From positions 1 to 64,000 of the forward strand of contig JASLYQ010000003.1 of assembly GCA_030739735.1 (NCBI GenBank): a stretch of DNA of 64,000 nucleotides. The letters run 5' to 3'. The position numbers were made by a program, and so were the translations under genes. The notes beneath the pieces were generated by a model, which saw only the letters and a list, made by a program, of their open reading frames with translations, was not told where the DNA came from and did not search any database. Source of the DNA: Alphaproteobacteria bacterium. Its GTDB lineage: Bacteria; Pseudomonadota; Alphaproteobacteria; UBA7887. Shown here one piece after another: positions 37,294 to 64,000 of this stretch; positions within the stretch are counted from its first letter, which is position 1, and each line of letters starts with the position of its first letter.

Positions 37294-37859
37294 TCGTTCG
37301 GCAGGGTCAGCGAGCGAAAGATGTTCTCGACAGCCTCGCGGTGGGCGTCAAAATAAACTGCGTCGGTGCCGATATAGAGCAGCAGGTGCAGGATTTTTTC
37401 TGCATCAATGGCGCCGCAGGCTAGGCCACGATAGGCAAGACCGTCGCTAGAAAAAAAAGTGATATCGAAGCGAAAGCCCGAGAGGCTGCCAAAGGCGGCC
37501 GGGCGCAGATTGCTGAAATCGGCATCGTTGGTCCCGACCTGGGCCAGACTGGCGAGCACGAAGTCGGCGACATCACTGGCGCGCATGCTCGTACGGTAGC
37601 GCGGCACGCCGTCATCGGGCCGTGGGCTGCTGTTGTCGAATAGCGCGTCACCGTCCTTGATGGTCGCGTAAAGCCGCAAGTTTTGCAGCGGGAGGCCGTC
37701 GACTGTCCACTGTTCCATGGGCGCCAGGGGAAAGCGGCTCCAGGCGATGGGGGTGGTTACCTCGTAGGCGCCATTGATCGACTGCGTGCCTGGCTCCACC
37801 AAGGTTACCTGCTCGCAGGATGCGGCGAGTAACAGCGCCGCGGCGAAAACGAGCCTCAT
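37284..37859 (-). CDS. Putative lipoprotein, unknown function
   Basis: 191 residues with a lipoprotein signal (MRLVFAAALLLAASCEQ, lipid Cys near 15). The mature domain contains 'VTTPIAWSRFPLAPMEQWTV' and a C-terminal 'DAVYFDAHREAVENIFRSL'. It would be anchored to a membrane on the periplasmic side. It is last in a three-gene minus-strand set of lipoprotein-like genes, each overlapping the next by four bases. I do not know the family; coupling to the M48 protease suggests a shared envelope job. Confidence 0.8.
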   Translation of the reverse strand: MRLVFAAALLLAASCEQVTLVEPGTQSINGAYEVTTPIAWSRFPLAPMEQWTVDGLPLQNLRLYATIKDGDALFDNSSPRPDDGVPRYRTSMRASDVADFVLASLAQVGTNDADFSNLRPAAFGSLSGFRFDITFFSSDGLAYRGLACGAIDAEKILHLLLYIGTDAVYFDAHREAVENIFRSLTLPNDQK

Positions 37860-38977
37860 TTGAGTTCCTTGATATAGGCACGGATCATCGCCGTGTCCTT
37901 GGCTTGCGGAGCGGTTACGAGATAGCGGGTAAAGGCGCGCAGGGCCTCGCTATCGCGGCCGAGCGACCACAAGGTAAGCCCAAGCCCGCGATGGGCTACG
38001 GCTGGTGCCTCTGGGCTCACCACAGCCATACGATAGGCGGCCAAGGCCTTCTTAGTTTCGCCGCTGCGGCGGAACATCTCGCCGCGCCAGTAACTCGCCA
38101 CGCCGTTATCGCCGAGGCGTTGCAGCACCACGTCCAGCGCGCCGTAGCGACCCTTGCCAATTTCCGCAGCGATCCACTCGTTGCGATGGCGTGCGACGGC
38201 TGCGTCAAAGCGCCCGGCGAAGCGCTCGCCACCCCGCATGTCGGCGAGCGCCGCAAGATTGGTTAGGCGCTCGTCGCTGGCCGGATGGGTTGAAAGCAGC
38301 ACGGGCGGCGCTTGGTCTTCATCCATAGCGTCCTGCTCGGCCAGTGCATTGCGCCAGACGGCGGCAGCAGCCTCGGCATCGTAGCTGGCCGCGACGAGGC
38401 GTTCGAAGCCAAGGCTATCGGCCTCGCGCTCCTGCTCCCGCGAGTAACTAAGCAAGGCGAGCTGAGTGGCAAGCTGCACGAGATTGCCGGCGCCACCATA
38501 GCCCCCGACTGCTGCGGCGATCGAAAGGAATGTTACCGCTGATGTGGCCGCGCGCGTCGAGCGCCAGCGCTCAAGCGTGTGGCGGCGCTGATAGTGGGCG
38601 ACCTCGTGGCCGAGCACGGCAGCGAGCTGGGCCTCGTTCTCGACGCGCAGTAGCAGGCCTGTCCAGACCGTCATAAAGCCGTTCGGTGCCATTGAGGCGT
38701 TGAAGCCTGCGCGCTCGACAACATAAACGCGGATGTCGCCGCAATAGTCGCTGGCGACGCGGCAGGCCACCTCTCTCACATAGGCTTGCAAGGTTTCATC
38801 TGCGACCAGAGCACCCGAGGTCAGGAGGGCACTCTCGGCTTGCTCCATCTCAGCCCATATGCCGCGCTCGTCGTGCTCCGCCACCACCTGGTCGGTGTCG
38901 CCGGGTGCGATGTCAGGCAATGACTGGGCGCAGGCGCTAGTGATCAGAAGCGTGCAGGCCGTCGCCAGAGTTCTCAC
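37856..38977 (-). CDS. M48 family metalloprotease with TPR-like tail, exported
   Basis: 373 residues. An export signal with possible lipobox (LLITSAC, Cys near 16) precedes the M48 domain: 'MAPNGFMTVWTGLLLRVENE', the zinc site 'VLGHEVAHYQRRH' (HEVAH 124-128), the third ligand in 'QEREADSLGFERL', and 'LLSTHPASDERLTNL'. The last 100 residues look like helical tetratricopeptide-type repeats. This is the BepA/LoiP-like envelope protease layout, associated with outer-membrane protein quality control. Coupled to lipoprotein genes on both sides. Confidence 0.92.
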   Translation of the reverse strand: MRTLATACTLLITSACAQSLPDIAPGDTDQVVAEHDERGIWAEMEQAESALLTSGALVADETLQAYVREVACRVASDYCGDIRVYVVERAGFNASMAPNGFMTVWTGLLLRVENEAQLAAVLGHEVAHYQRRHTLERWRSTRAATSAVTFLSIAAAVGGYGGAGNLVQLATQLALLSYSREQEREADSLGFERLVAASYDAEAAAAVWRNALAEQDAMDEDQAPPVLLSTHPASDERLTNLAALADMRGGERFAGRFDAAVARHRNEWIAAEIGKGRYGALDVVLQRLGDNGVASYWRGEMFRRSGETKKALAAYRMAVVSPEAPAVAHRGLGLTLWSLGRDSEALRAFTRYLVTAPQAKDTAMIRAYIKELK

Positions 38978-39672
38978 AATGGCAGCCCATCGAGCAGCCG
39001 CCGTGTGGTCTCGCGCGCGCCCTTTTCCTGGCGCGGGTCGCCGACGCTGCTGTTGAGACTGTTGAACCAGATGATACGGCCGTCATTGAGGTCGACCAGG
39101 GAGATGAAACCGAATTGCTGACCACCCTGCACTACAGCGCCGAGCGCGGCGCCGATCACCATCAGGGCAACGCGCCCAGAACTGGAAAAGCTGTCGCGAA
39201 AAGTGAGGAAGAGGGCGTAGTCGGCCTCGTAATCCTCGCGCAAAACAGCGATGCCAGGGCCGAGGGTATAATCAAGCACCGGCTTGGTCGGCAACGCCAG
39301 GCTTGGCAGCTGACCGTGGAAGAGAATGGCCGAGCCGACGGCATCGTGCAGCTTGACCAATTGCTGATGCTCGGGGTGGTGACGCAGCAAGCTGTTCTGT
39401 GGCGGCGCGTAGGCGAGGACGTTGGCGGCGTGCTTCGCAAAATGCTCGCCAAGAGCTGTGGCGATGTTCTGGCGTGCTGTCTCGGTCCATTCCGCATTAG
39501 GCTCGAGCAACCCGGCGACGGTAATTTCGTACAGCGCAATATTGGTTGGCATTACCAGAACGGAAACCGTCTCCGCCGACCGTGCGAACTCAAGCTCTGG
39601 TAGCAGCGGATCCGTGCGCACGCAAGCCGCTAGCATCAGCAACAGAAAACCCAGCGATGTACCTGCTCTCAT
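38974..39672 (-). CDS. Putative lipoprotein, unknown function
   Basis: About 232 residues from the ATG at 39672, which begins a lipoprotein signal (MRAGTSLGFLLLMLAACV, lipobox LAAC); the earlier start at 39696 adds eight residues. The mature part includes 'TVSVLVMPTNIALYEITVAG', a glycine-rich stretch near 'ALMVIGAALGAVVQGGQ' that may touch the membrane, and 'FGFISLVDLNDGRIIWFNSL', like periplasmic lipoproteins that export or assembly systems use. First gene of the M48 operon. Confidence 0.82.
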   Translation of the reverse strand: MRAGTSLGFLLLMLAACVRTDPLLPELEFARSAETVSVLVMPTNIALYEITVAGLLEPNAEWTETARQNIATALGEHFAKHAANVLAYAPPQNSLLRHHPEHQQLVKLHDAVGSAILFHGQLPSLALPTKPVLDYTLGPGIAVLREDYEADYALFLTFRDSFSSSGRVALMVIGAALGAVVQGGQQFGFISLVDLNDGRIIWFNSLNSSVGDPRQEKGARETTRRLLDGLPL

Positions 39673-39725
39673 CATCTCCTGCTCATAGCACCCCAAGCGA
39701 GGTTCGTGCTACCTACCGGATATGA

Positions 39726-40120
39726 GGGGGGCAAGCCATTGTCTTTGGTGTACTGTTGGGCGCTCTGACCGCGTTCACCTGGGGTCGGCTGCGACAAGCC
39801 GTAGTGGCGGTGCTGGCGCCGATGCTGGTGGCGACCATGCTTCTCTCGGATATGATCAACAATGCCGCCATAACGCTGGTCATGGCGCCGATCGCCGTTG
39901 GCATTACCGAGACCCTGGGGGTCGGTCGCGATGCTTTTCTGATGGCGGTAGCAATGGGGGCAACGTGTTCTTTTTGACACCCATCGGCCGGCAGTCGAAC
40001 ACGTTGGTGATGGGGCCGGGCAGCTACCGCTTCGGTGACCATTGGCGTGTGGGTCTGCCGCTGGAAGTGGCGGTCGTGCTCGTTGGCGTGCCGATGATCG
40101 TGCTCGTACCGCCGATATGA
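39726..40120 (+). pseudogene. SLC13/DASS-type permease C-terminal remnant with frameshift
   Basis: A decayed transporter end in two frames. Frame one reads '[20 protein letters not shown]' up to 'AMGATCSF' and stops at 39975-39977. The other frame continues '[20 protein letters not shown]' then '[13 protein letters not shown]' to 40120. Joined, they match the end of SLC13-type carriers, including the intact gene at the right edge (SCSFASPIGYQTNLLVMAPG). Restoring one T in the T-run near 39970-39974 reconnects them. The N-terminal three quarters are missing. Confidence 0.75.
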
Positions 40121-40204
40121 TTACCACATCATATAGGCGAGCTGGTCCATATTCAGGTAGAAGACGAGCCCGGATACCGCGAGGATGATGATACAAGCGT
40201 TCAT
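40121..40204 (-). CDS. Candidate 27-residue single-span membrane microprotein
   Basis: The ATG at 40204 has a strong AGAAAGG site six bases upstream. Residues 2-18 are hydrophobic (NACIIILAVSGLVFYLN) and form one short membrane span; the tail is 'MDQLAYMMW' and stop. It abuts the stop of the SLC13 remnant on the other strand and diverges from dgoK. It is too short for routine gene callers. The clean ribosome-binding site and membrane-like sequence are the evidence; no homologue is known to me. Confidence 0.5.
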   Translation of the reverse strand: MNACIIILAVSGLVFYLNMDQLAYMMW

Positions 40205-40252
40205 GTCAAACCTTTCTGCGACGAACCTAACCTCGCGCTTCTGGACGGCACA

Positions 40253-41185
40253 GTGACGGGGATCACGGATACGGCATTGATCGGCATCGACTGGGGCACC
40301 ACTGCCCTGCGTGCCTATCGCTTCGGCGGCGACGGCGCCGTCGTCGATCGCCGCGCCAGTGCGCACGGAATCTTGGCGGTCGCCGGGGGTGGCTTTGATG
40401 CGGTGTTTGAAGAAACAGTTGCGGGCTGGCCCGACTGCCCGGTGGTGATCTCCGGTATGATCACGAGCCGCCAGGGCTGGTTGGAGCTACCCTATCTGAT
40501 GTGCCCGGCCCCGGTGGGCACTTTGGCGGATGCCCTGCACCGGCACCGATGCGAAAGCGGTCGCACCGTGCACTTCGTGACCGGCCTTAAGGTGCGCGAC
40601 ACCGCGGGTGTACCAGACGTGATGCGTGGTGAGGAAACGCAGATCCTCGGCGCTATCACGGTGGGCGCTACGGAGCCGCGCCTTCTGGTGCTGCCAGGTA
40701 CCCATAGCAAGTGGGTCCTGGTCAAAGGTGACGAGGTATCCGGGTTCTCTACTTTCATGACCGGCGAAGTCTTTGCCGTGCTCAAGGAGCACTCGATACT
40801 CGGGCGCATGACGACCGGCGAGACGAGAGATCAAGCGGCCTGGCGGCGCGGTGTCGCGTACGGGCTCGACGAGAGCAGTGATCATGGAGGACTGTTGCGG
40901 CGTCTGTTCAGCGCCCGCAGTCTGGCGCTTTTCGATGAGCTGCCGCGGGCCGGCGTTGCGTCATACCTGTCCGGGTTGCTGCTGGGGGCGGAGGTGCGCG
41001 AGGCACGGCATTTCTTTGGCGCGCGCGTGAGTGGGGGGTCCGTGCTGTTGCTCGGTAGTGCCGCACTCTGCGATCTCTACGCCGAGGCGCTGGCGTTTGC
41101 CGGGTTATCGGCCGAGCGTGGACCCGACGATGCGGCAGCGCGGGGCCATTGGCGAATCGCCGCCGCTGCGGATTTGCTGACATGA
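40253..41185 (+). CDS. dgoK: 2-dehydro-3-deoxygalactonokinase
   Basis: 310 residues starting at a GTG. The sugar-kinase (ASKHA-like) N-terminus reads 'ALIGIDWGTTALRAYRFGGD' and 'ADGRV'-like loops are replaced by the DgoK-specific 'VVISGMITSRQGWLELPYL' and 'VLPGTHSKWVLVKGDEVSGF'. It phosphorylates 2-keto-3-deoxygalactonate (De Ley-Doudoroff route). The start of the aldolase overlaps its stop (ATGA). With the UxaA-like/SDR/KduD-like genes at 16-22 kb this supports keto-deoxy sugar acid use. Confidence 0.93.
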   Translation: MTGITDTALIGIDWGTTALRAYRFGGDGAVVDRRASAHGILAVAGGGFDAVFEETVAGWPDCPVVISGMITSRQGWLELPYLMCPAPVGTLADALHRHRCESGRTVHFVTGLKVRDTAGVPDVMRGEETQILGAITVGATEPRLLVLPGTHSKWVLVKGDEVSGFSTFMTGEVFAVLKEHSILGRMTTGETRDQAAWRRGVAYGLDESSDHGGLLRRLFSARSLALFDELPRAGVASYLSGLLLGAEVREARHFFGARVSGGSVLLLGSAALCDLYAEALAFAGLSAERGPDDAAARGHWRIAAAADLLT

Positions 41186-41799
41186 TGGATTTGGGCGCAT
41201 TGCCGTTGGTCGCTATTTTGCGTGGTGTCGAGCCGGGGGAGGTGGTGGCGATCGGCGAGGCGCTAGTCGCGGAGGGTTTTCGTATCGTCGAGGTGCCGTT
41301 GAACTCGCCGCAACCGCTCGATAGCATCGCGAGACTGGTCAAAAATTTGGGCAATGACGTGCTCATCGGCGCCGGCACTGTGCGCGATCCGGACGACATC
41401 GCGCGCATCGCCAATGCCGGCGGGCGTCTCATCGTTATGCCCCACAGTGATGCGCGTGTGATTGCGGAGGCCAAGCGGCAGCATCTCTTCTGCCTGCCAG
41501 GGGTGGCGACGCCTACGGAGGCCTTTGCGGCACTCGCCTCCGGCGCCGACGGGCTTAAAATGTTTCCGGCCGAGGCGCTGCCGCCACTCACGCTTAAGGC
41601 CTGGCGCGCGGTGCTGCCGAAAGACTTGCCGTTGTTGCCGGTTGGCGGTATCGCGCCTAACACCATGGCCCCTTATGTCAGCGCAGGTGCTGCCGGATTC
41701 GGGCTTGGCTCGGCGCTGTACAAGCCAGGCATGACAGCGGGCGACGTGATGACGAGCGCTCGCGCTTTCGCCGACGCCTGGGCTGCGCTCAGTCGCTAA
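41182..41799 (+). CDS. dgoA: 2-dehydro-3-deoxy-6-phosphogalactonate aldolase
   Basis: 205 residues from the ATG at 41182, overlapping the dgoK stop. KDPG/KDPGal class I aldolase: 'PLVAILRGVEPGEVVAIGEA', catalytic Glu in 'GFRIVEVPLNSP', 'VLIGAGTVRDPDD', 'LFCLPGVATPTEAF' and the Schiff-base Lys in 'GADGLKMFPAEALPP'. Pairing with dgoK favours KDPGal over KDPG. It yields pyruvate and glyceraldehyde-3-P. It converges on the UDG gene with an 11-base 3' overlap. Confidence 0.94.
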   Translation: MMDLGALPLVAILRGVEPGEVVAIGEALVAEGFRIVEVPLNSPQPLDSIARLVKNLGNDVLIGAGTVRDPDDIARIANAGGRLIVMPHSDARVIAEAKRQHLFCLPGVATPTEAFAALASGADGLKMFPAEALPPLTLKAWRAVLPKDLPLLPVGGIAPNTMAPYVSAGAAGFGLGSALYKPGMTAGDVMTSARAFADAWAALSR

Positions 41800-63488: not shown

Positions 63489-64000
63489 TCAGAGGTCATA
63501 ATACCACGGTGCGAACAGTGAGAAAGCGACCCACAATATCAAAATCAGTGGTGCGCCCGCCCGCACATAGTCGCTGAAGCGGTAATGGCCGGGCGCCATG
63601 ACCAGAAGATTGGTCTGGTAGCCGATGGGCGAGGCGAAGGAGCAGCTGGCGGCGAAGATCACGGCATAGACGAAAACCATCGGCTCGATCCCCAGCTGGT
63701 GGGCGAGATTGATAGCGATGGGCGTGAAGAGAACCGCTGCAGCGTTGTTGCTGAGAAGATTGGTGAACAGCGCGATGACCGCAAAAAGCGCGGAAAGTAT
63801 GATCGCGGGGCCGAATTGTGCGAGCCCGGCAATCATCTGGTGCGCCACGTAGGCAGCGGCACCCGTGGTCTCGAGTGCGGCCCCGAGCGCCAGGGTGGCC
63901 GCGACGATCATGACTACGGCGCCATCCACCGCACGCGTCGCCTGGCGCACGTTGAGACAGCCGGTCAGTAGCATCGTCGCTGCACCGGTCACCGCTGCGA
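63489..64000 (-). CDS. SLC13/DASS-type transporter, C-terminal part, cut by window edge
   Basis: The frame is open through the right edge, so only the last 170 residues are seen. They contain several membrane spans, 'IALFTNLLSNNAAAVLFTPI', 'IFAASCSFASPIGYQTNLLV' and 'GHYRFSDYVRAGAPLILILW', which are hallmarks of the SLC13 anion symporter (or TrkA-C-containing SLC13-like) family. The decayed copy at 39.7-40.1 kb is the same family. Substrates are typically dicarboxylates, sulfate or other anions. Confidence 0.88.
   Translation of the reverse strand, partial: AAVTGAATMLLTGCLNVRQATRAVDGAVVMIVAATLALGAALETTGAAAYVAHQMIAGLAQFGPAIILSALFAVIALFTNLLSNNAAAVLFTPIAINLAHQLGIEPMVFVYAVIFAASCSFASPIGYQTNLLVMAPGHYRFSDYVRAGAPLILILWVAFSLFAPWYYDL

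Follow-up and report, generated by a model that had tools for sequence, protein, structure and literature searches.

A probable lineage-restricted small membrane protein gene upstream of dgoK in two alphaproteobacterial genera

Can an open reading frame (ORF) of only 27 codons, squeezed between a pair of sugar-acid genes and a broken transporter gene, be a genuine gene, and what might its product do? The ORF lies on the minus strand of the window (the whole 64,000-nucleotide stretch of DNA analysed here), at positions 40121–40204, and its translation from 40204 to 40121 reads MNACIIILAVSGLVFYLNMDQLAYMMW, followed by a TAA stop codon. An earlier note had described, with no strand given, a 27-residue ORF here with the motif AGAAAGG six bases before its ATG, and both are present: the Shine-Dalgarno site AGAAAGG occupies positions 40211–40217 of the same strand, in the order AGAAAGG-TTTGAC-ATG. 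Matches of this kind are uncommon, since at least six nucleotides of a Shine-Dalgarno site match at 1.5 per cent of the ATGs in the 64-kb window and at least seven nucleotides at 0.4 per cent. The ATG is located inside a longer open frame of 81 amino acids that begins with GTG and runs antisense to the start of dgoK; because the Shine-Dalgarno site points to the ATG, we favour the 27-aa start. A search for a promoter-like site near the ORF found none. Its own genome (2.64 Mb, 69 contigs) contains the ORF only once.

Small membrane proteins as a general class have at most 60 amino acids and one span, and are conserved (compare PMC10903887). The 27-aa ORF is short and has one hydrophobic segment of 15–30 residues, as such proteins do. 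When tiny ORFs are counted as membrane-like if their best 15-residue mean hydropathy is at least 2.0, it is the only one in the window that starts with ATG and has a Shine-Dalgarno match of at least six nucleotides. Twenty windows simulated with a first-order Markov model contained on average 0.55 tiny ORFs with a hydropathy of at least 2.5, none of them with a Shine-Dalgarno match of that length. The earlier suggestion of a small protein that would span the membrane once and has a good ribosome-binding site, beside a transporter remnant, is supported. Such a gene would likely be overlooked by standard annotation.

The neighbours of the ORF differ in their state of preservation. Divergent from it is an intact dgoK (2-keto-3-deoxygalactonokinase; 40253–41185, plus strand; PF05035, E = 1.2e-91), whose start codon is 48 bp from that of the microprotein, and dgoK is followed by an intact gene for a dgoA-type 2-dehydro-3-deoxy-6-phosphogalactonate aldolase (41182–41799, plus strand; NF006600, above the cut-off). 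At the other end, the stop codon of the ORF adjoins that of a convergent (tail-to-tail) C-terminal remnant of an SLC13/CitMHS transporter gene (39807–40120, plus strand). The remnant consists of two pieces, 61 and 69 per cent identical to residues 506–608 of an intact 609-aa relative. As these pieces are in different frames and cover only the last ~100 residues, the transporter is both truncated and frameshifted. Intact relatives of the transporter are common in Alphaproteobacteria (104 of the 385 sampled genomes).

A counterpart of the ORF exists in G002, a genome from a different genus within the same family of Alphaproteobacteria (metagenome-assembled genome IP29b_bin.128, record JANQOH010000339.1). 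Its sample name, IP29b, refers to a colony of the coral Isopora palifera whose skeleton was sampled (PMC9868349). The G002 ORF encodes 30 residues, MWNVKTASIAVIICAILLFYNIDRINALIW (L021:4405-4497, minus strand). Seen from dgoK, it lies where the window ORF does and on the corresponding strand, upstream of, and divergent from, dgoK-dgoA. On the strand of the 30-aa ORF, about 90 bp downstream of it, is a gene for a dehydratase of the mandelate-racemase type, and beyond the dehydratase lies an intact gene for a 609-aa transporter, convergent to the microprotein and dehydratase genes. The spacer between the start codons of the microprotein and dgoK measures 139 bp in G002 vs 48 bp in the window and aligns poorly; no Shine-Dalgarno site is recognisable before the G002 ORF. 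The window genome lacks the dehydratase gene at the microprotein locus; its closest homologue of the G002 enzyme (66 per cent) is encoded on another contig, with no copy of the microprotein in the flanks that were retrieved. Apart from the remnant, the best match to the G002 transporter in the window genome is 33 per cent identical.

The two peptides are 35 per cent identical; both contain an FY-N-D core and end in a Trp immediately before the stop codon. By hydropathy alone, their membrane segments are alike, with best 15-residue means of 2.65 (window) and 2.51 (G002). The best local alignment pairs ACIIILAVSGLVFYLNMDQLAYMMW of the window with ASIAVIICAILLFY-NIDRINALIW of G002, and the sole indel in the aligned part is one whole codon. 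The codon alignment scores 51 in the coding frame and at most 15 in the other five frames, with the offset and gap taken from the protein alignment, a choice that favours the coding frame. Identity is highest at second codon positions and lowest at third positions (13, 18 and 10 of 26 at positions 1, 2 and 3, respectively). In 20,000 neutral mutation runs the observed score was never reached; 0.03 per cent of column shuffles attained it. Could a non-coding spacer nonetheless carry a hydrophobic ORF in both genomes by chance? The ORFs are short and number just two, no Shine-Dalgarno site can be recognised before the one in G002, and when the G002 peptide was shuffled with its core and tail kept apart, 1 per cent of trials attained the local alignment score. 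A coincidence would nevertheless have to account for position, strand, terminal Trp and stop, and frame-specific similarity in combination, as well as for the strong Shine-Dalgarno site in the window, and we regard it as rather improbable. With a similar copy in the corresponding spot of a related genus, the microprotein gene is probably genuine, restricted to this lineage and likely to encode a small membrane protein.

Beyond this pair, the searches yielded little. A single-sequence search of 143 relatives gave chance matches alone and missed even the G002 copy at E ≤ 1. A profile built from the two sequences found nothing convincing beyond its founders among 385 genomes of the class, 9 of the family and 398 of the phylum, where searches at such short length have low power for diverged members. 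Among the best 80 dgoK loci of the genome collection, a counterpart was present in G002's own record only, and neither the loci of related dehydratases nor those of related transporters contained one; a tblastn search of plasmids with the G002 peptide returned no match. The check proposed in the earlier note, a search of translated spacers of relatives for the same peptide, therefore came out positive in one relative and negative in the other genomes searched, and conservation elsewhere amounts to one syntenic counterpart, two sequences in all. No family in Pfam, NCBIfam or PDB matches the microprotein. The Pfam families Sid-5 and Neur_chan_memb were rejected as identities, their matches being far below the cut-off, and the PDB matches were weak (E ≥ 0.2) and to parts of unrelated membrane proteins.

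The difference between the two loci suggests a history. In the ancestral state, the microprotein gene would have stood upstream of, and divergent from, the sugar-acid genes dgoK and dgoA, with the dehydratase gene after it on the same strand and a convergent SLC13-type transporter gene beyond. We infer loss in the window genome rather than gain in G002 because a fragment of the transporter remains: the dehydratase would have disappeared from this spot, the transporter would have been cut to a fragment, and the microprotein gene would have been left beside the deletion scar with its start, Shine-Dalgarno site and stop all intact. The same truncated and frameshifted transporter and missing dehydratase could also mean that the ORF itself is a relict, a once real gene whose partner (the transporter, for example) has gone and which is now decaying in a partly deleted locus. 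This is possible, if on the whole unlikely, as decay has spared not only the start, Shine-Dalgarno site and stop but also the membrane segment, and dgoK-dgoA is intact. Alternatively, the layout of G002, where the ORF precedes the dehydratase gene by a short distance in the same direction, would suit a leader ORF whose translation controlled that downstream gene ancestrally, with no role for the peptide as such. Against this, the similarity is at the amino-acid level and the membrane segment is kept; we find a leader conceivable but clearly less likely because the ORF survives in a genome that lacks the dehydratase at this locus and no RNA element was found (an Rfam search of the window's stretch gave none, and folding there is not unusual). 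The size and hydrophobicity of the peptide would in general fit a type I toxin as well, yet it matches no Pfam toxin family, has no basic residues and no Rfam antisense RNA, occurs once in the genome and is found in a metabolic gene context in two genera, which makes a toxin highly improbable.

If the gene is real, its peptide would be translated and inserted in the inner membrane as one helix, most likely with the N terminus inside and the D-containing, W-terminated tail outside. Known proteins of this kind, very small and with one span, join larger membrane proteins or target them (PMC11539335), and by analogy with AcrZ, KdpF and MgtS, the peptide probably binds and tunes such a protein. As the earlier note proposed, it may regulate a membrane protein or act as its partner, a plausible candidate role. 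The obvious candidate partner is the transporter, yet its gene is convergent in G002, where the microprotein is instead co-directional with a soluble dehydratase, and broken in the window genome; the microprotein gene has therefore either been kept for another partner or is a leftover. We put the probability of the whole account (a real lineage-restricted gene, an ancestral locus whose other members were lost here, and one helix tuning a larger membrane protein) at roughly 60 per cent. More tentatively, and with little confidence, the two sequences could represent an undescribed microprotein family of this group of Alphaproteobacteria, linked to the metabolism or uptake of sugar acids (galactonate-type). 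Its members would serve a membrane transporter as small subunit or regulator, and the window copy would have outlasted its ancestral neighbours thanks to a second target.

Like the window peptide, the Escherichia coli transporter regulators AcrZ, KdpF and MgtS are very small and have a single span, but the window peptide has no sequence match to a Pfam, NCBIfam or PDB family, and none of their partner genes lies beside it. Cytochrome bd oxidase has a small subunit, CydX, that is likewise a small hydrophobic protein and sets a precedent for large sequence variability with few conserved residues, as well as for members left unannotated (PMC4325964). The window ORF differs from it in lacking both a family match and adjacent cytochrome bd genes: neither a CydX nor a KdpF profile in Pfam or NCBIfam matches the peptide, and its neighbours are dgoK-dgoA and the SLC13 remnant, not cydAB or kdpABC. 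Small membrane proteins of uncultured lineages easily go unnoticed. The window and G002 hold two syntenic copies whose coding-type similarity escapes a single-sequence search. The two genomes also offer a natural case of a microprotein ORF that outlives the genes accompanying its relative's copy.

Elsewhere in the window, a second SLC13-type transporter gene occupies the very end (63489–64000, minus strand) and continues to about C3:65168; its product is 33 per cent identical to the G002 transporter. A 240-aa ORF without a Pfam match or a homologue in G002 (38974–39696, minus strand) adjoins a gene for an M48 peptidase/TPR protein (37856–38977).
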